Shown piece after piece: positions 8,535 to 34,183 of a DNA stretch of 36,096 nucleotides; positions within the stretch are counted from its first letter, which is position 1; each line of letters starts with the position of its first letter. The position numbers and the translations under genes are program-made. Source of the DNA: Betaproteobacteria bacterium (GTDB taxonomy: Bacteria > Pseudomonadota > Gammaproteobacteria > Burkholderiales > Burkholderiaceae_C). The notes under the pieces were generated by a model. The model was not told the DNA's origin, searched no databases, and saw nothing but the letters and a program-made list of their open reading frames with translations. The stretch covers positions 1-36,096 of the forward strand of contig JAHECB010000011.1 in NCBI GenBank assembly GCA_024641925.1. Direction: 5' to 3'.

Positions 8535-8712
8535 ACCCGCGCTTTCAGCAGAGGGAGTGTCGGGTCGCCTGTCGAGACCGGGTTGAGCTTGCCAGCGGCA
8601 GGCCGTAACGGCCTGCGAGCGCCTTCATCGTTTCGCTACAGGGAGCGCAGCGGCCGCAGACGCACGCCACGAAACAGTTGAGCGACGTCGTGCGCATCGC
8701 GTTTGGCAAGCA
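8535..8712. other. Unassigned stretch with a REP-like hairpin
   Basis: No gene was recognised on either strand. At 8598-8616 GCAGGCCGT and ACGGCCTGC form a perfect 9-bp inverted repeat around a single A. The rest is GC-rich with short open frames interrupted by stops. The segment sits between the xth fragment and the sterol-desaturase remnant and probably belongs to the same rearranged patch. Confidence 0.4.
8598..8616. repeat. 19-bp palindrome, GCAGGCCGT-A-ACGGCCTGC
   Basis: Perfect inverted repeat with a one-base centre. It has the size and composition of REP-type extragenic palindromes or of a small regulator site. Only one copy was noticed in the window, so membership of a repeat family is not shown. 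Confidence 0.6.
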
Positions 8713-9190
8713 TTGCAAGCCAGGCTGGCCCCCTTGAGCCTGTGGGGCCGCGTGTTCAAGCTCGGCTTTCTGGCGTTGATGCTTGCGGCTGCACCCGCGC
8801 TGGCCTGGACGACCGAGCACTTCTTGCTGCGGCTGGCCGCATGGGCCATCCTGGCCCTGCTGCTGGCACAGCTCGCCTTTGTGGGGTACCGCGCGGGCCG
8901 TGGCCTATACCCCGGCATGTGTGCCAGGGCTCTGTGCCGCCGGCGCTGTATGCCTGCCTGGCCTGCGTGTCCAACCACGCCGTCTTCATCCAAGCCAATC
9001 TGCGCTGGCGCTTCCCGGTGCTGCGCTGGTTGATCGCAACACCCGAGTTCCACCACGGGCGCCACCGTTCGGACGTGGAAGGCATCGACAAGAACTTCGC
9101 CAGTGCGCTGCCGATGTAGGACGGGTTGTTTTGCACGGCGCATCCGCCGGACCACTGGCCGCACCACTACGGCACCGTGGGCGTTGGTGC
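8713..9190 (+). pseudogene. Degraded sterol desaturase / fatty acid hydroxylase-type gene
   Basis: The region 8937-9190, read in one frame, gives SNHAVFIQANLRWRFPVLRW, then LIATPEFHHGRHRSDVEGID, NKNFASALPM-type sequence and, after an in-frame TAG at 9117-9119, DGLFCTAHPPDHWPHHYG. This is the C-terminal part of the FA_hydroxylase (sterol desaturase) superfamily, a di-iron membrane oxygenase. The usual FHHWHH-type histidine box reads FHHGRH here. The upstream hydrophobic stretch at 8713-8930 (LGFLALMLAAAPALAWTTEH) lies in a different frame and the central histidine boxes are missing. A frameshift, an internal loss and a nonsense codon together make this a pseudogene. The family call for the C-terminal part is fairly secure; the origin of the N-terminal part is not. 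Confidence 0.72.
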
Positions 9191-9356
9191 TGCGCAACAA
9201 AGCGCCCGACCTACCGAGGCGCTCCGGGGCTGCCCGCCCGCCCGTACGCCTGGAAGCCGCATCTGATGCCTGGACTGGGCATCCTGTAGCCGACAGGCCC
9301 GAGCGCGCCGTCGATCCGGCGCACCGATCATGGAGTCCGGCAGTGACCGCCACCCG
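9191..9356. other. Unassigned stretch upstream of the glucanase-transporter gene
   Basis: Follows the sterol-desaturase remnant. No gene, repeat or convincing promoter was recognised before the first LacI-type operator. Confidence 0.4.
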
Positions 9357-9414: not shown

Positions 9415-9426
9415 GATAGCGCTTTC
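9415..9426. promoter_or_regulatory. LacI/GalR-type operator, downstream site
   Basis: GATAGCGCTTTC shares eleven of twelve bases with the upstream perfect site GAAAGCGCTTTC, with one arm degenerate. Two sites of the same kind in front of a sugar-transport gene point to repression by a sugar-responsive LacI-type protein, possibly with looping. The site is inferred from sequence only. Confidence 0.5.
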
Positions 9427-9545: not shown

Positions 9546-11906
9546 ATGTCCCCAGCCACTGCCACCGCGCACCACAAGGTCCCGTTCGGGCAGAAAATCG
9601 CTTTCGGTCTGGGCATGCTGGCCAACCAGATGTTCCCGGCCGCCTTGGGCATCTTCATGGTGGTGCTGGTCCAGGACATGGGCTTCCCCGCCTGGATGTG
9701 GGGCGTGCTGTTTTTCCTGCCCCGGGTCTTCGATTCGGTCACCGACCCCATCATGGGTTTCATCTCGGACAACACGCGGTCCAAATGGGGCCGGCGCAAG
9801 CCGTATGTGCTGGCGGGCGCCATCATGATGGGCATCTCCTTCGTGGCGATGTGGCAGCTGTACCGCGACGACGGGGTCAACTACAACTTTGTCTATTTCC
9901 TGTGCTGGTCGCTGGTGTTCTACCTGGGCCTGACGCTGTTCAGCATTCCCTACGTGGCCATGGGCTACGAGATGAGCGATGACTTCCACGAGCGCACCAG
10001 CATCATGGCCGTGGCGCAGTGGATCGGCCAGTGGGCCTGGGTCATCGCGCCGTGGTTCTGGGTCGTGATGTACGACCCCAGCTGGTTCAAGAACGCCGAC
10101 ACCGCGACGCGCACACTGTCGGTCGGCGTTGGCGTGGTCTGCATGCTGCTGGCGATGGTGCCGGCGCTGTTCCTGCCCAGCCGCTCGACCCAGGACGACA
10201 CCCATCTGGTCCCGCTGAACCTGCACAACATCGGTGGCGGCATGCGGGAGATCCTGAACGGCTTCAAGGAGGCCCTGGGGTCGGCGCCGTTTCGCAAGCT
10301 GTGTTTCGCGACTTTCTTGATCTTCAACGCCTTCAACACGGTGGCGGCGTTTTCATTCTTCATCGTCGTCTACCACCTGTTTGCGGGCGATGCGGCGGCT
10401 GCCGGCATCTGGCCCACGCTGTTTGGCAGCATCGGCGCGCTCATCACCACCTTCGCCGTCATCCCCACCGTGGCGTGGATGTCGAAGAAGATGGGCAAGA
10501 AAAACGCCTTCATGCTGTCGCAGGGCATCTCCATCATCGGCTACGTGCTGCTGTGGTTCCTGATGATTCCGGGCAAGCCCTACATGTTCATGTTCGCATT
10601 GCCGTTCTTCTCTTTCGGCATCGGCGGCCTGTTCACTTTGATGATGTCGATGACCGCCGACGTGTGTGACCTGGACGAACTGGCCACGGGCAAGCGGCGC
10701 GAAGGCATCTTTGGCGCCATCTACTGGTGGATGGTGAAGTTCGGTTTTGCTATCGCGGGCTTGCTCAGCGGCGCCATCATGTCGTGGGTTGCGTTCACGC
10801 CAGGTGCCGCCGCGCAGCCCGCCGGTGCGGTGGACGGCATGCGCCTGTTCTATTCCGGCCTGCCCATCTTCGGCACATTGCTGGCGATGTGGATCATGCG
10901 CAACTACGACCTGGACGAGCAGCGCGCCACCGAGGTTCACGCCGAGCTCGAGCGCCGCAAGCTGCGCGCCGGCGGATCGTCGTCGTCCCAGGGCTCGGGT
11001 GCCCGGCCGTGGCTGGAAGAGCATGGCCTGCACCTGCCGGTGATGGAGAAGTCGCCGCTGGCGGACAAGACCGCGGCCGAAGTCCGCGCGTTGTATGCCG
11101 AGCTGTTCAGCAGCAAGGTGTATGGCTTGTGCTTCAGCGCCTACGTCGAAGGGCAGGGCGCGGGCGACCAGTTGACCGAGGCGCAGGTGCGCCGGCGCAT
11201 CGGGGTCATCGCGCCGCACACACGCTGGGTGCGATCGTTCGCCTGCAGCGAAGGTCACGAACTGATTCCCCGGCTGGCCCGCGAGAAGGGCATGAAGACC
11301 ATGGTCGGGGCCTGGATCAGCCACGACCGGGACCGCAACGAGCGCGAGATCGCCGGGCTGTTGACGCTGGCCCAGGCCGGCCTGGTCGACTTCGCCGTCG
11401 TGGGCAACGAAGTGCTGCTGCGCGGTGAACTGCCCGAGGCCGAACTGCTGGACTACATCCGGCGTGTCAAGGCCGCGCTGCCGGACGACGTGCCGGTGGG
11501 TTGCGTCGACGCCTATTACCAGTTCCTGGAACGGCCGGCGCTGACAGCGGCCTGCGACGTGCTGCTGCCCAACTGCTACCCCTTCTGGGAAGGCACCGAC
11601 ATTGCCATGGCCGCCCCCTACCTGCGCCGCATGGTCGGCCTGGTGCAGGCAGCGGGCGGCGAGAAGCCCGTCATCGTCACCGAAACCGGTTGGCCCGGCA
11701 ACGGGCAGCCGGTGGCCGGCGCCGTGCCTTCAGCCGAGAACGCCATGCGCTACTTCGTCGATGTCCAGCAATGGGCCCGGCGTGACGGCGTCAAGCTGTT
11801 CTACTTCTCCTCGTTCGACGAGCCGTGGAAGCTGAAGCAGGAAGGCGAGGTGGGCACCCAGTGGGGCCTGTGGGACAAGGACGAGCAGCCCAAGTACGGG
11901 GTCTAG
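9546..11906 (+). CDS. GPH-family sugar:cation symporter fused to a GH17 beta-1,3-glucanase domain
   Basis: A 786-residue two-domain protein. Residues about 10-455 are a 12-helix GPH (glycoside-pentoside-hexuronide) MFS transporter: VPFGQKIAFGLGMLANQ at the start, FLPRVFDSVTDPIMGFISDN and TRSKWGRRKPYVLAGA after helix 2, GKRREGIFGAIYWWMVKFGF late, and the usual NYDLDEQRATEVHAELERRK end. After a Ser/Gly linker (about 475-485), residues about 524-785 form a GH17 barrel: YGLCFSAYVEGQ, RSFACSEGHELIP, the acid/base Glu622 in VVGNEVLLR, DAYYQF, LPNCYPFWEG, the nucleophile Glu713 in VIVTETGWPG, and FYFSSFDEPWK. Both catalytic glutamates are present. With 12 helices the GH17 part should face the cytoplasm, suggesting uptake of laminari-oligosaccharides coupled to cleavage (inference). 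ATG 9546 was chosen over an in-frame GTG at 9522. Two LacI-type operators lie upstream. Confidence 0.93.
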   Translation: MSPATATAHHKVPFGQKIAFGLGMLANQMFPAALGIFMVVLVQDMGFPAWMWGVLFFLPRVFDSVTDPIMGFISDNTRSKWGRRKPYVLAGAIMMGISFVAMWQLYRDDGVNYNFVYFLCWSLVFYLGLTLFSIPYVAMGYEMSDDFHERTSIMAVAQWIGQWAWVIAPWFWVVMYDPSWFKNADTATRTLSVGVGVVCMLLAMVPALFLPSRSTQDDTHLVPLNLHNIGGGMREILNGFKEALGSAPFRKLCFATFLIFNAFNTVAAFSFFIVVYHLFAGDAAAAGIWPTLFGSIGALITTFAVIPTVAWMSKKMGKKNAFMLSQGISIIGYVLLWFLMIPGKPYMFMFALPFFSFGIGGLFTLMMSMTADVCDLDELATGKRREGIFGAIYWWMVKFGFAIAGLLSGAIMSWVAFTPGAAAQPAGAVDGMRLFYSGLPIFGTLLAMWIMRNYDLDEQRATEVHAELERRKLRAGGSSSSQGSGARPWLEEHGLHLPVMEKSPLADKTAAEVRALYAELFSSKVYGLCFSAYVEGQGAGDQLTEAQVRRRIGVIAPHTRWVRSFACSEGHELIPRLAREKGMKTMVGAWISHDRDRNEREIAGLLTLAQAGLVDFAVVGNEVLLRGELPEAELLDYIRRVKAALPDDVPVGCVDAYYQFLERPALTAACDVLLPNCYPFWEGTDIAMAAPYLRRMVGLVQAAGGEKPVIVTETGWPGNGQPVAGAVPSAENAMRYFVDVQQWARRDGVKLFYFSSFDEPWKLKQEGEVGTQWGLWDKDEQPKYGV

Positions 11907-11931: not shown

Positions 11932-12540
11932 TCAGGGCGACGCCAACAGCTGCAGACCCAGCAGCGGCGCCATGATCAGCAACGCAATCCAGCCCACGCC
12001 TGCAGCAAGGCCCAAGACGACCAACAGGCCATCTCGGTTGATCATGCCAAAGGCCGTCAACGCGACCGCCAAGCCCGGCACGGTGTTGGTCAAGGGCAAG
12101 GGCACCAGTATCGAGGCACAGAACAGCATCAGGAACAGGCCCATCAGACGCTCAAAACGGGGCCCGGTGATGAACTGCAAACGGGGCCGGGAGAACCGTT
12201 CCACCCAGCCCAGCCATTTGCGCCCGCCGCGTGCGGTGCCGATCAGGCCCTTGCGGTCGATCATCCGGCCCGCAAAGCGCCGCGGCATCCAGGGTTTTTG
12301 GTGGCCCAGCACCATCTGCACGGCCAGGGCCATCATCGGCAGCGACACCAATTGCGGTACACCGTAGAGAAACGGTATGCAGCAGGGCAGCGCCAGCAGA
12401 AACAGACCGGCCCCAAAGGCGCTTTCGTCCAGTTCTTCAATGATCTCGCCCAGGCTGAAACCCGACGCGGGCGCGCGGTCAGCCAAGTCTTCGATGGTCT
12501 GCAACAGGGTGCGGGTCGGTGCGGTTTCCGGTGGGGTCAT
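11932..12540 (-). CDS. ExoD-family membrane protein
   Basis: A 202-residue integral membrane protein of the ExoD family, named for a Rhizobium gene affecting exopolysaccharide production and alkali tolerance; its biochemical function is unknown. Family signatures are visible: LGEIIEELDESAFGAGLFLL, LALPCCIPFLYGVPQLVSLP and, later, ILVPLPLTNTVPGLAVALTA. Four or so hydrophobic segments are arranged in two halves. I start it at ATG 12540 (MTPPETAPTRTLL); an ATG at 12582 would add 14 basic residues and cannot be excluded, as neither has a clear Shine-Dalgarno. It converges on the GPH-GH17 gene with only 25 bp between stops. Confidence 0.9.
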   Translation of the reverse strand: MTPPETAPTRTLLQTIEDLADRAPASGFSLGEIIEELDESAFGAGLFLLALPCCIPFLYGVPQLVSLPMMALAVQMVLGHQKPWMPRRFAGRMIDRKGLIGTARGGRKWLGWVERFSRPRLQFITGPRFERLMGLFLMLFCASILVPLPLTNTVPGLAVALTAFGMINRDGLLVVLGLAAGVGWIALLIMAPLLGLQLLASP

Positions 12541-12753
12541 GGTCCTGGTCTTCAGGCGTTTGGCGTGCCCTGGCTCGATCATGTTGCCGCCGTGTCTTCA
12601 GGCCCACACGGCCAGGGGGCATCTTTCAGAACCCGGCCTGCGCCACGTCCGGATGCGGCCCCATGCCGCCGACATGCCCGCACGCGGTCGATCAGCGAAA
12701 CGGCGCTAGGCACCCCGAAATTGCTGGGAGACGATGTCCGGCTGGCGGGTCTG
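12541..12753. other. Unassigned stretch between exoD and the reductase remnant
   Basis: No gene, repeat or terminator was recognised in these roughly 210 bp. It must hold the promoter of the ExoD-family gene on the minus strand. Confidence 0.4.
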
Positions 12754-29277: not shown

Positions 29278-29320
29278 TCCCCGCGCCGCCCCCGGCTGAA
29301 TGCGCTGGCGTTGTTTGCCA

Positions 29321-29342
29321 GGGGCCTTGACGGCCCCTTTTT
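29321..29342 (+). terminator. Intrinsic terminator of tkt-gap
   Basis: GGGGCC (29321-29326) pairs with GGCCCC (29332-29337) around the loop TTGAC, followed at once by five T residues. It lies 44 bp after the gap stop codon and is a textbook rho-independent terminator. Confidence 0.92.
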
Positions 29343-29381
29343 CAATTCAGGTTGCGCCGTTTCGCGCCTGTGCTGAAGGGG

Positions 29382-29405
29382 TGTGCTCAAGGGTGTGTGC
29401 TCAAG
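29382..29405. repeat. Two 10-bp direct repeats upstream of the first protease gene
   Basis: TGTGCTCAAG occurs at 29382-29391 and 29396-29405, a 14-bp period, between the gap terminator and the protease start. It may be a small duplication or a paired regulator site; nothing else in the leader supports either reading. Confidence 0.5.
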
Positions 29406-29533
29406 TAAGTCGATGGGCCGCCGAAACTCAGGGTGTGACCGACAAACCCGCGCGATCGTCAGCCCGCTGGCGCCAAGATCTCCCTGACGAAAAGGCCGGT
29501 GCTGCGCCTTTGCTGCACCCCTACACTGCGCGC

Positions 29534-32173
29534 ATGCATCCGTTTCGCACCCCTGGTCAGGTTCTGCTCGCAGGCCTTCACGGCTTGCTGGCTGCCGGCG
29601 TTCTGGCCCTTTGCGGTGCTGCTTCGGCCGCCCCCCAGCGCCCGGCCCGTGTGGCGGCGCTGCCGGCACCGCTGGCCCCGGTGGAAGGTGAAGTGATCGT
29701 GGGCTTCAAGCCGCAAGCCGAGGCTCTTCGTAAGTACACACTATCGGCCAAGGCCTCTAAAACAGACGCCAATGCCCAGTTGACTCAACGGGCAGCGATG
29801 CTGGGCGGCCGCTTGAAGCGCCCGTTGTTGTCCGTTCAGGCCGTGAGCAACCAGGCGCAGGTGATGAAGGTGGCGGGTCTTGACGCGAAGACCCTGGCCC
29901 GTGAACTGGCAGCCGATCCCGACGTGGCCTACGCCGTGCCCAATGGACGCAAGCGCGCCTACACGGCACCCAACGACCCCCTGTACCCGGCCGCGGCCAC
30001 GGGTGCGCGCATCAACGGTCCGGACAGTGGCCAGTGGTACCTGCGGGCGCCTTCAGGCGCGGTGGTCTCTGCCATTAATATTGAAGCGGCCTGGGCCTAC
30101 ACCCAAGGCACGGCGTCGACGGTGGTCGCGGTGCTCGACACCGGCGTGCGTTTTGACCACCCCGACCTGGGCCGTGCTGCCAGTGGCGGGCAACTGCTGC
30201 TGGGGTATGACTTTGTCAGCAACACGGCAGTGGCCAACGACGGCAATTCGCGTGATGACGACCCCAGCGACCCGGGCGACTGGGTCACCAGCGCTGACTT
30301 GCGCTCGTCCACCTTCAGCGGGTGCAGCGTCACCCCCAGCTCATGGCACGGCACGGCCACGGCCAGCCTGGTGGCCGCGGCAGCCAACAACGGCCTGGGC
30401 ATGGCCGGTGCGGCGCCGGGTGTGCGGGTGTTGCCGGTGCGGGTGCTGGGCAAGTGTTTTGGCACCGATGCCGACATCCAGGCCGGCATGCTGTGGGCTG
30501 CCGGCATTTCAGTGGCCGGCGTGCCTGACAACCCCAACCCGGCCCGGGTGATCAACCTGAGCCTGGGCGGCGACGGCCTTTGCGACGCCGCTTATGCCGA
30601 CGTGATAGCGCAGGTTCTGGCGCGCGGCGTCGTCATCGTCGCCGCCGCAGGAAACACGGCCGGCGGGGCGGTGAACGTGCCCGCCAACTGCAGTGGGGTC
30701 ATCGGCGTGACCGCGTTGCGTCATGCGGGCACCAAGGTGGGCTTTTCAGACCTCGGGCCCGAGGTCAGCATTGCTGCGCCGGGTGGCAACTGCATCAACA
30801 TCACGGCCGGGTCGCCCTGCCTGTACCCCTTGTTGGCGGCCACCAACAAGGGGATACAAGGACCGACCACCTCGGCCTGGACCGACAGCTACGACATCAG
30901 CGTGGGCACCAGCTTTTCCTCGCCGCTGGTGGCTGCGGTGGTGGGTTTGATGGTGTCGGCGCAACCGAATCTGACACCGGCGGAAGTACGCCAGATGCTG
31001 CAGGCGTCGGCGCGGCCGTTTCCCACCACCGGGGGCGACAACGGCCCCGATGACCCCACCCCCGTGGGGCAATGTGTGGCACCGCAGCCTGGCGTCGAGC
31101 AGTTTCAGTGCTACTGCAACACCAGCCTGTGTGGCGCCGGCATGCTGGACGCCGGCGGCGCCATGGCGCTGGCCGTGGGCTTACCGTTGGCCAACGTTGC
31201 ACTCAGCCCGACCGTCCCCATTGCGGCCAGCCCGGTCACGCTCAGTGCCAGCGGCAGCTCGGGGGCCTTGGTCGGCTATCGGTGGCAACTGCTCGGCGCT
31301 GGCGGCATCGTCAGCGGCTTTGACGGCGCCAACAATGGGGTCACCGCCCAGCTGACGCCCAGCGGGCCGGGTGCCTTCACGGTGCAGTTGACGGTGACCG
31401 ACCTCGTGGGGCAAACCGCCACCACCACACGGACGGTGACAGTGCTGGCCACGCCCGTGCCCACGGCAGTGCTGACCGTCACCACGGCCACACCCGTGGC
31501 ACCCTCTCCGGTCGCACTGAGCGCCACCAGCAGCTTGGCCGGCACCGGCAGCACGCTCAGCAGCTACCAGTGGACCTTGCTGGACGGCGGCGGCATCGTC
31601 AACGGGTTCAACGGGGGCATGACGCAAAACACGGCGTCGCTCACGCCCACGGCCGCCGGCAGCTTCACGGTGCGCCTGACGGTCACCAACGCCCAGGGCG
31701 CCATGGCCACTGCGGACCGCACGGTGGTGGTGGTGGTCCGTCCCACCGCCACCATCACCAACGCCACGGCCACGCCAGTGGCGGGCTCGCCGGTGACGCT
31801 GAATGCAACCGGCAGCGTGGCCGGTGCGGGCAGCACGCTGACCGGCTACCAGTGGTCGCTGGTCAATGGCGGCGGCGTGGTCACGGGCTTTGACGTCCAG
31901 CCTGACGCACCGACCGTGTCCTTCACCCCCAGCGGCGCGGGCACGGTCACGGTGCAGCTGACCGTCACCAATGCCACCGGTCAGAACGGCAGCAGCCAGA
32001 TCACGGTTGCCGTGGCCGCCCCCTCGGGTGCGGGGGGGCCCTCTGGCAGCAGTTCCGGCAGCGGCGGTGGTGCCACCTCGGTGTGGTGGGTGCTGGGAGT
32101 GCTGCTGGCAGTTGCACTTCTCCACACTGTCGGACGGCAGCCGGCAGGCACGCAGCCCCGGCAAATTGAATAA
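29534..32173 (+). CDS. Secreted S8 (subtilisin-like) serine protease with PKD-like repeats and GlyGly-CTERM-like tail
   Basis: An 879-residue secreted protease. Order: signal peptide (residues 1-33, LLAGLHGLLAAGVLALCGAA), inhibitor-like propeptide (about 45-140, GEVIVGFKPQAEALRKYTL and ELAADPDVAYAVPNGRK), S8 catalytic domain (about 165-540) with Asp202 in VVAVLDTGVRFDHPDLG, His272 in SSWHGTATAS and Ser460 in VGTSFSSPLVAA, then three PKD/Ig-like repeats of about 90 residues (to about 825). The tail is a Gly/Ser-rich stretch, a hydrophobic helix (VWWVLGVLLAVALLHTV) and basic residues, like GlyGly-CTERM sorting signals cut by rhombosortase. Cysteines in the catalytic domain suggest disulfides. 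A TACACT -10-like hexamer at 29522-29527 is so close to the ATG that the mRNA may be leaderless. A paralogue follows after 27 bp. Confidence 0.93.
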   Translation: MHPFRTPGQVLLAGLHGLLAAGVLALCGAASAAPQRPARVAALPAPLAPVEGEVIVGFKPQAEALRKYTLSAKASKTDANAQLTQRAAMLGGRLKRPLLSVQAVSNQAQVMKVAGLDAKTLARELAADPDVAYAVPNGRKRAYTAPNDPLYPAAATGARINGPDSGQWYLRAPSGAVVSAINIEAAWAYTQGTASTVVAVLDTGVRFDHPDLGRAASGGQLLLGYDFVSNTAVANDGNSRDDDPSDPGDWVTSADLRSSTFSGCSVTPSSWHGTATASLVAAAANNGLGMAGAAPGVRVLPVRVLGKCFGTDADIQAGMLWAAGISVAGVPDNPNPARVINLSLGGDGLCDAAYADVIAQVLARGVVIVAAAGNTAGGAVNVPANCSGVIGVTALRHAGTKVGFSDLGPEVSIAAPGGNCINITAGSPCLYPLLAATNKGIQGPTTSAWTDSYDISVGTSFSSPLVAAVVGLMVSAQPNLTPAEVRQMLQASARPFPTTGGDNGPDDPTPVGQCVAPQPGVEQFQCYCNTSLCGAGMLDAGGAMALAVGLPLANVALSPTVPIAASPVTLSASGSSGALVGYRWQLLGAGGIVSGFDGANNGVTAQLTPSGPGAFTVQLTVTDLVGQTATTTRTVTVLATPVPTAVLTVTTATPVAPSPVALSATSSLAGTGSTLSSYQWTLLDGGGIVNGFNGGMTQNTASLTPTAAGSFTVRLTVTNAQGAMATADRTVVVVVRPTATITNATATPVAGSPVTLNATGSVAGAGSTLTGYQWSLVNGGGVVTGFDVQPDAPTVSFTPSGAGTVTVQLTVTNATGQNGSSQITVAVAAPSGAGGPSGSSSGSGGGATSVWWVLGVLLAVALLHTVGRQPAGTQPRQIE

Positions 32174-32200: not shown

Positions 32201-34183
32201 ATGCCCCTCAAGTGCCCCGGTCCCGCCCGCCTGTTCGGGCCCGTTTTTGCCCCCCTGAGGGTCTGGGCGGCGGGTGCCTGTCTGGCAGGCATGGCCCTGG
32301 CACAGGCACAGACGCTGAACACCGCCCCGGCGCCGGCGCAGCGCCAACTGACGGTGGGCCTGACCCGCATGCCCACCTCGGCCGAAGCCACGCACAGCGT
32401 GCAGGGCCTGATCGTGCGCCTGAAAGAGGCGGCACCCCACATCACCACCGTGCCCGGCCTGAAGCCCTTGGGCGATCGCATGCGCCAACGCGACGCCGAG
32501 CGCTGGCGCTCGGTGCTGCGGGGCGCGGCACTCACGGCCACCTCGGGTGCGCGTGAACCCGTGCTGCGGCCTTCGGGCCGCGATTACGAAGTACTGGACT
32601 TCGGCCGCTCGCTGTCCGTTGCCGAAGCCGAACGTGTGGCCGACCGATTGCGCCAGCGCCCCGAAGTGGAATGGGTGTCGCTGAACGCCCTGGAGCAGCG
32701 CCTGCAGGTCACCAGCGACCCGCTGTCGGCCGAGCAATGGTGGCTGAAGGCCGCTGGCGGCACCGATGGCAACGTATTGCCCGACCGACTGCGCGGTGTG
32801 CCCGGCTTTTTCAGTGCCTGGACGCTGGCCGGTGCGGGTGCTGCCGCCTCGGGTGGCATCTCCGCCGTGGTGGCCGTACTGGACACCGGCATCACGCCGC
32901 ACCCCGACCTGGTCGGCCGCGTGCTGCCGGGCTACGACTTTGTCAGCGACCCCCTGACCGCCAACGACGGTGACGGCCGTGACAGTGACCCTACGGACGC
33001 CGGTGACTGGGTTTCAGCCACTGACCGCAAACAGGCGCGGTTTGCCAACTGCAACGAGCAACGCAGCTCCTGGCACGGCACCGTCATCGCCGGGCTGGTG
33101 GCCGCAAACGCCGACAACGGCATCGGCGTGGCCGGCATCGATCGCCAGGCGCGCATCCTGCCGGTGCGTGTCGCGGGCAAATGTGGTGCTGCCGTGGCCG
33201 ACATCGTGGACGGCATGCGCTGGGCCGCCGGCCTGCCGGTGGCGGGTGTGGCCCTGAACCCCAACCCGGCCCGCATCATCAACATCAGTTTTGGCGGCTC
33301 GGCGGCTTGCGGGCGTGAATACCAGGCTGCGGTCGACGAATTGCGCGGCATTGGCGTGGTGGTGGTGGCAGCGGCGGGCAACGACCACGGCAACGTGTCA
33401 CGGCCGGCCAACTGCAATGGCGTCATCGGCGTGGCGGCGCTGAATCGCGATGGCTTCAAGGCCCACTATTCCAGCTTCGGCCCGGCGCTTTCCAGTACCG
33501 GCCTGGCCACCGTGGGCGGCGACGACGCGCGTTCGGGCGCCTGGGCTGAATTGTTGTCCGACGGCGGCCTGGTCACGGTGTGGAACACTGGCGCCACCGG
33601 CCCGGGCAGCGGCGAGTACGCCAAGCTCTTCGGCACCAGTTTTGCGGCGCCCCTGGTGTCGGGCACGCTGAGCCTGATGCTGGGCGTCAACCCCGCACTG
33701 ACGGTTGAGCAACTGATCGAGGGTGTGCGCAAGAGCGCGCGGCCTCACGTGATGTCCACGCAGATCGGTGTCTGCAGTGAGGACAACCCCGGGCGCTGCA
33801 TCTGCACCGAAGCGACCTGTGGTGCTGGTGTGCTGGATGCCGTGCAGGCGCTGCATTTCGCTGGCAACCCGGGCAGCTATGTGCCGCCGGCGCGCCAGGC
33901 CCAGGTACTGGACGCGGCCGAGATCCGGCAGGCCGTGGCCCTGGGCCAGGACCTGCCCCCCAACCACACGGCCACCGCCAGCGCCGCGGGCCTGTCGGGT
34001 GCCGATGGCGGTGCCAACAGCGCCGCAGGCAGCACGGGGGCCACGCAGGGTGTTGAAGGCGGCGGCGGTGGCCTGGCCGGTTGGCAGGCCAGCGCGTGGC
34101 TGCTGCTGGCCACGCTGTTGTTGTGGCGCCAGCAGCGCGGGGTTCAGCCGGGCCTGCGCCGGATCAGCGCGTCACACAGCTGA
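32201..34183 (+). CDS. Secreted S8 (subtilisin-like) serine protease with GlyGly-CTERM-like tail
   Basis: A 660-residue paralogue of the preceding protease, without the PKD-like repeats. It has a signal peptide ending near ALAQAQ (residue 37), a propeptide at about 50-165 (QGLIVRLKEAAPH, RPEVEWVSLNALEQRLQ), and the S8 domain at about 175-560 with Asp228 in VVAVLDTGITPHPDLVG, His292 in SSWHGTVIAG and Ser480 in FGTSFAAPLVSG. The tail has GVEGGGGGLAGW, a hydrophobic helix (ASAWLLLATLLLW) and RQQRG, the GlyGly-CTERM layout. The Cys pairs (CNEQRSSW, CSEDNPGRCICTEATCGAG) match those of the first protease. The two genes are 27 bp apart and probably one transcript. Its 3' end overlaps the convergent SPOR-like gene by 20 bp. 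Confidence 0.93.
   Translation: MPLKCPGPARLFGPVFAPLRVWAAGACLAGMALAQAQTLNTAPAPAQRQLTVGLTRMPTSAEATHSVQGLIVRLKEAAPHITTVPGLKPLGDRMRQRDAERWRSVLRGAALTATSGAREPVLRPSGRDYEVLDFGRSLSVAEAERVADRLRQRPEVEWVSLNALEQRLQVTSDPLSAEQWWLKAAGGTDGNVLPDRLRGVPGFFSAWTLAGAGAAASGGISAVVAVLDTGITPHPDLVGRVLPGYDFVSDPLTANDGDGRDSDPTDAGDWVSATDRKQARFANCNEQRSSWHGTVIAGLVAANADNGIGVAGIDRQARILPVRVAGKCGAAVADIVDGMRWAAGLPVAGVALNPNPARIINISFGGSAACGREYQAAVDELRGIGVVVVAAAGNDHGNVSRPANCNGVIGVAALNRDGFKAHYSSFGPALSSTGLATVGGDDARSGAWAELLSDGGLVTVWNTGATGPGSGEYAKLFGTSFAAPLVSGTLSLMLGVNPALTVEQLIEGVRKSARPHVMSTQIGVCSEDNPGRCICTEATCGAGVLDAVQALHFAGNPGSYVPPARQAQVLDAAEIRQAVALGQDLPPNHTATASAAGLSGADGGANSAAGSTGATQGVEGGGGGLAGWQASAWLLLATLLLWRQQRGVQPGLRRISASHS

Follow-up and report, generated by a model that had tools for sequence, protein, structure and literature searches.

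A sugar symporter joined to a GH17 barrel in a Burkholderiales genome, with a predicted cytoplasmic enzyme and a candidate LacI-type regulon

The DNA analysed here, referred to as the window, is a stretch of 36,096 nucleotides in which positions 9546-11906 form one reading frame of 786 codons plus a stop codon, free of internal stops (Table 1). Pfam places an MFS_2 domain at residues 20-458 (227.6 bits against a cut-off of 27, above the gathering score) and a Glyco_hydro_17 domain at residues 702-786 (43.1 bits, cut-off 28.2). The NCBIfam model of GPH symporters, TIGR00792, gives a full-length match to the symporter at 193.2 bits, below its curated cut-off of 231.35. The best PDB match of the whole fusion protein is the GH17 glucanosyltransferase 4wtp (1.6e-32); since that alignment spans residues 547-780, most of the GH17 barrel is present. 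The catalytic glutamates are found as E622 within an NEV motif and E713 within TETGW. The original prediction of one uninterrupted frame, symporter first and GH17 second, with Glu622 and Glu713 both intact, is confirmed down to the residue numbers.

Table 1 Features of the fusion gene, its predicted parts, and the associated palindromes
Feature	Position	Strand	Basis or remark
MFS_2 (GPH-type) symporter-GH17 barrel fusion, 786 aa	9546..11906	+	translation, Pfam, relatives
Symporter half, residues ~1-459, 12 predicted helices	9546..10922	+	hydropathy, MelB alignment
Linker and barrel lead-in, residues ~460-526, hydrophobic segment absent	10923..11123	+	hydropathy
GH17 barrel, residues ~527-786; E622 (acid/base), E713 (nucleophile), L625, W681, E682	11124..11903	+	alignment
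GAAAGCGCTTTC palindrome, a candidate LacI-type operator 188 bp upstream of the start codon	9358..9369	.	motif search
GATAGCGCTTTC, a further candidate operator with one mismatch, spaced 57 bp from GAAAGCGCTTTC	9415..9426	.	motif search
All places of GAAAGCGCTTTC	window 9358; L114:10001; L140:5220, 7139, 9904; L141:6769		four contigs

Directly downstream of the fusion, in convergent orientation, lies an ExoD gene (11932-12582, minus strand, 185.7 bits). In the region 8700-9290, short frames overlap one another and look, on inspection by eye, like a broken fatty-acid hydroxylase/sterol desaturase-like gene; the three frames tried there gave no Pfam match. Two adjacent subtilase genes occupy 29300-32170 and 32201-34180, the first with PKD domains. 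GH17 enzymes of the NdvB type carry GT2 and GH17 in the same protein. No GT2 glycosyltransferase domain was matched in the window protein by Pfam or NCBIfam, and the genes that share its upstream palindrome (see below) look catabolic, which led us to reject an NdvB-like role in glucan synthesis.

Full-length, stop-free fusions were found in 11 of 61 related genomes, the window's own included, and all 11 belong to the window's genus, which contributed 37 genomes to this set. At E 1e-60, the window genome is the sole carrier of the fusion both in a sample of the order (399 genomes) and in one of the phylum (398 genomes); the two best candidates per genome were scored, and the listed rows held no congener. 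Just an unfused relative of the symporter is present in one other genome of the order sample (33% identity) and in six of the phylum sample (39-59%), four of which have a separate GH17 match. A scan of contigs for related stretches, from which the best 80 of 391 were kept, returned both domains in one frame in all 80 loci; judged by their titles, 47 come from Bacteroidota and 33 from Burkholderiales or other beta-proteobacteria, among them Hydrogenophaga, Rhodoferax, and Rubrivivax. The cultured relatives Rubrivivax rivuli KYPY4 (L058) and R. albus ICH-3 (L065) carry the fusion. These 80 together with ten loci from the genus, minus eight duplicates (L116, L119, L121-L124, L126, and L127) that were removed before distinct proteins and residues were counted, amount to at least 82 distinct fused proteins besides that of the window. 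The domain search envisaged by the original prediction has thereby found the same architecture in many other genomes, in Burkholderiales-type and Bacteroidota loci alike, and the fusion is therefore a real and conserved gene; an assembly or sequencing error or a frameshift joining two genes, the latter two among the refuting conditions that the prediction had named, is ruled out. In many of the relatives (best 80 of 391 plus genus loci) the fusion adjoins further GH17 genes. A plasmid search with the GH17 part gave no match. The free tree nests the Burkholderiales clade within Bacteroidota. A single Bacteroidota clade was compatible with the AU test (p 0.741), in which the constrained tree scored higher; a transfer from Bacteroidota to Burkholderiales, as the free tree would suggest, is only one possible direction.

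It had been thought that such fusions might be undescribed, which is not the case. One of them, FbGH17B of Formosa, was reported in 2018 by Unfried et al. (PMC6246565), who measured exo-beta-1,3-glucosidase activity of its GH17 part on debranched laminarin, stated that MFS-GH17 fusions are common among marine Flavobacteriia, and proposed a coupling of hydrolysis and product uptake. In a 2023 bloom study (PMC10108472), 11 of 15 Bacteroidota MAGs and 7 of 18 gammaproteobacterial ones expressed variant 1 laminarin PULs; one or more GH17-MFS fusions were present in most of the expressed PULs of this variant, and the same passage continues with a list of SAR92, Luminiphilus, and SAR86 MAGs. The gammaproteobacterial part of that account was not reproduced in our phylum sample of 398 genomes, where no gammaproteobacterial fusion was found among the two best candidates per genome. 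Among the matches listed in open-licence PMC text, no report of a Burkholderiales MFS-GH17 fusion was noticed. A GH17 enzyme free of a signal peptide is likewise on record, the stand-alone MlGH17B from Muricauda lutaonensis (53% to FbGH17B; PMC11005184). The window protein is a new Burkholderiales member of an architecture already known from marine bacteria; what is new beyond this is the cytoplasmic topology signal, the occurrence of GAAAGCGCTTTC at six places, Leu625, the probable losses of the GH17 domain, and a second type of fusion.

The residues of the GH17 active site bear on whether the barrel would act as a hydrolase or a transglycosylase. According to PMC11005184, mutagenesis of RmBgt17A identified Tyr102, Trp157, and Glu158 as necessary for transglycosylation. 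In the window barrel this Tyr-Trp-Glu acceptor triad of GH17 beta-1,3-glucanosyltransglycosylases is incomplete, consisting of Leu625, which aligns with Tyr102, together with W681 and E682. Among the distinct fused domains of the best 80 of 391 stretches and the genus loci, window included, both catalytic glutamates and both W681 and E682 are kept in 83/83. Residue 625 is Leu in 36/36 Burkholderiales-type fused domains of this set and likewise in 36/36 distinct separate GH17a domains of Burkholderiales-type loci. In the Bacteroidota loci of the best 80 of 391, the fused domains mostly have a residue other than Tyr at this position (42/47), whereas Tyr is present in 41 of 44 separate GH17 domains. 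By the Tyr mark, many Bacteroidota loci would pair a hydrolase with a transglycosylase, and the Burkholderiales sequences examined are without the mark in both the fused and the separate GH17a domains.

With Leu625 in place of the tyrosine on which transglycosylation depends, a hydrolase is the likelier assignment. We regard it as unlikely, though the best placed of the alternatives, that the barrel serves chiefly as a beta-1,3-glucanosyltransglycosylase and makes branched glucan out of the imported oligosaccharides. In favour of this, the closest PDB sequence and MlGH17B, a stand-alone homologue, are both transglycosylases, and the Trp and Glu are invariant; against it stand the uniform Leu of the Burkholderiales-type domains and the scarcity of Tyr in fused Bacteroidota domains as compared with their separate counterparts. 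Few characterised enzymes underlie the Tyr rule itself, and Tyr does occur in 5 of the 47 fused Bacteroidota domains (best 80 of 391). The original prediction left it open that the protein "cleaves or transglycosylates" its substrate; cleavage is now the best reading, and transglycosylation is weakened by Leu625.

To place the barrel relative to the membrane, helices were called from Kyte-Doolittle hydropathy windows. All 12 predicted helices of the window protein lie before residue 451, and the sole later stretch over the helix threshold (602-620) is inside the barrel, just before E622. The highest 19-residue mean in the linker (456-525) is 0.26. A linker segment passes the threshold of 1.1 in only 1 of 59 aligned proteins (L088, 1.36). 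Predicted cytoplasmic loops of the window protein contain 28 Lys and Arg residues vs 4 in the periplasmic loops; the direction of this positive-inside bias is the same in 59/59 aligned proteins, with medians of 31 and 3. Both termini of MelB are cytoplasmic (PMC8329300). Since the helix number, the charge bias, the linker, and the MelB termini agree, the GH17 barrel is most likely cytoplasmic, as originally proposed. A periplasmic barrel that cuts oligosaccharides to glucose, which the symporter then takes up, is one reading of the coupling that Unfried et al. put forward for Formosa (PMC6246565); with each of these four observations against it, we judge it improbable, slightly more so than transglycosylation.

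The symporter half was compared with MelB, for which the roles of the cation residues and of the galactoside-binding K18, D19, and D124 are described in PMC8329300. The cation-site residues D55, D59, T121, and K377 of MelB align with D63, D67, T130, and K398 of the window protein, of which D63, D67, and K398 are invariant in 59/59 aligned proteins; at T130, 53 proteins have Thr and the other 6 have Ser. The positions of K18, D19, and D124 are occupied by Asn, Gln, and Ser in 59/59. Since the galactoside residues are replaced throughout, the sugar is probably a different one, and the symporter half is probably a cation symporter for a sugar other than MelB's.

A link to beta-1,3-glucan is provided by the palindrome upstream of the fusion. 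The 4,944,527-base assembly contains GAAAGCGCTTTC at six places, compared with 0.14 expected from the window's base composition and 0 for the reversed control. Each place is near beta-1,3-glucan genes or the window fusion. One copy separates a LacI gene from an SBP gene that heads two ABC permeases, a GH1, an ABC ATPase, a GH16, and two GH17 genes. Another is at the head of a TonB receptor of the TIGR01782 type that adjoins a GH149 1,3-beta-glucan phosphorylase, whose score of 1141.5 bits narrowly misses the cut-off of 1150. Three are on the L140 contig, which encodes a GH17 lipoprotein-like protein, a GH81, a CBM protein scoring below cut-off, an aldehyde dehydrogenase, and a protein of no known family. 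Genes beyond the window were picked with a simple ORF and GC3 script, their starts are approximate, and several start with MKALS or LKALS only because the palindrome reads so. Judged from N-terminal hydropathy only, a crude test, GH81 and the lipoprotein-like GH17 look exported, and GH16, GH17a, GH17b, GH1, and GH149 do not. A 495-aa protein without a Pfam or NCBIfam match (L140:3715-5199) is encoded directly before the GH17 lipoprotein-like gene.

The palindrome recurs in relatives. The 33 Burkholderiales-type loci of the best 80 of 391 hold 83 copies of GAAAGCGCTTTC in 29 loci, compared with 0 or 1 for each of five control patterns, and the 47 Bacteroidota loci hold none. An exact copy lies within 6 kb upstream in 24 of 35 other Burkholderiales-type fusions; for some of the 35 the available upstream DNA is shorter than 2 kb. 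Only 2 of the 35 (L035 and L056) are accompanied by one-mismatch copies within 600 bp; neither locus shows a separate GH17, and the two copies of L035 have the 57-bp spacing seen in the window. Since GAAAGCGCTTTC is common to the fusion and the beta-1,3-glucan genes, the data suggest that these genes, spread over four contigs, form one LacI-type regulon, and a LacI-type regulator probably controls the fusion with the glucan genes via this palindrome. Two observations count against a strict version of the rule: one copy also precedes the aldehyde dehydrogenase gene and one the protein of no known family, and five fusions that stand apart from GH17a/GH17b (L041, L043, L057, L059, and L065) have no site within 600 bp. 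The beta-1,3-glucan context assumed at the outset is upheld by the shared sites and not by adjacency in the window genome.

Taken together, the architecture, the topology, and the glucan context make import followed by cleavage on arrival the best reading of the locus. We consider it fairly probable that the protein combines cation-coupled import of laminari-oligosaccharides with their exo-cleavage in the cytoplasm, carried out by the GH17 barrel tethered to it. A laminarin-like glucan would be cut outside the cytoplasm by GH81 and the GH17 lipoprotein-like protein and would pass the TonB receptor. The oligosaccharides would then cross the inner membrane through the ABC transporter and through the symporter half of the fusion, which would import short beta-1,3-gluco-oligosaccharides with a cation. 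The tethered exo-beta-1,3-glucanase barrel would trim the oligosaccharide as it emerges, beside the free and apparently cytoplasmic GH16, GH17, GH1, and GH149, and the LacI-type regulator would control the fusion and the glucan genes through GAAAGCGCTTTC.

Variants within the genus could serve as natural controls for this device. In three congeners (L117, L118, and L128) the symporter is 84% identical to that of the window and the GH17 domain is absent. In a tree that took in 55 of 97 distinct symporter rows, they occupy three separate positions within the fused clade, and one common origin was rejected (AU p 0.0066), from which three losses of the GH17 domain are the simplest and best reading. 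For L117 and L128, a search for a GH17 remnant in the 1500 bases after the stop gave no match better than E 0.5; the same interval of L118 has strong matches on the other strand, which are the neighbouring GH17a and GH17b genes. Since the symporter is kept, the tether would be dispensable in these relatives. Domains that stopped catalysing usually lose their catalytic residues, and although transport is independent of GH17 in these three, the retention of E622, E713, W681, and E682 in all fused domains counted makes it very improbable that the domain is mostly a sugar-sensing or assembly module of the transporter instead of a catalyst.

Two other loci of the genus contain a second fusion (L129:6271-8796 and L130:4104-6539), in which a distant MFS_2 symporter, 27-28% identical to that of the window, is joined to GH17a by an Ala/Pro-rich linker of roughly 100 residues. 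The two proteins are 72% identical over 821 residues; despite this, FastTree did not group their GH17 parts, with weak support. Both have an in-frame AGGAG-N6-ATG at the GH17a start, and an AGGAG-like site precedes the start in only 10 of 36 separate GH17a genes by the same script. Genes of this type may thus yield both a tethered and a free GH17a enzyme. In the window, unlike in L129 and L130, no Shine-Dalgarno-like sequence was found before the in-frame starts GTG499 and ATG500, and internal initiation of a second product was rejected. It is conceivable, and we offer it tentatively, that selection joined a symporter to GH17 at least twice, once in the known fusion and once in the L129/L130 type. 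If so, and with the cytoplasmic topology, transport-coupled trimming would be a device favoured enough to re-evolve and not a one-off accident.

These results extend a transporter-enzyme fusion of marine laminarin degraders to a Burkholderiales genus and tie it to a testable LacI-type regulon. The genus offers the fused form, symporters that lack the domain, and a second fusion built on another symporter, with which it can be asked whether tethering an exo-hydrolase to a symporter speeds uptake. Leu vs Tyr at residue 625 is a residue-level prediction that should separate hydrolase from transglycosylase.

Among known systems, the closest is FbGH17B (FORMB_24740, AOR29491.1, of Formosa sp. Hel1_33_131), to which the window protein is likened by description and not by sequence. 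Both combine an N-terminal 12-helix MFS transporter and a C-terminal GH17 in one gene, both have a laminarin setting, with GH149 present in the Formosa laminarin PULs (PMC6246565), and both lack Tyr at the position equivalent to Tyr136, which is Met in FbGH17B (PMC11005184). The host of FbGH17B is a marine Bacteroidota with SusC/SusD-type PULs, whereas the window genome is Burkholderiales-type, its fusion gene is apart from the GH17 cluster, and the system comprises a TIGR01782-type TonB receptor, an ABC importer, and LacI-type sites. MlGH17B differs from the window protein in being a stand-alone transglycosylase with Tyr136 present (PMC11005184). The symporter half resembles the melibiose symporter MelB (PDB 4m64 and 7l16) in its MFS_2 family by sequence and its cation-site residues, but not in the galactoside residues, and MelB has no C-terminal enzyme. 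The barrel shares the equivalents of W157 and E158 with RmBgt17A (PDB 4wtp), a free enzyme from which it is set apart by the replacement of Tyr102 and by its attachment to a transporter.
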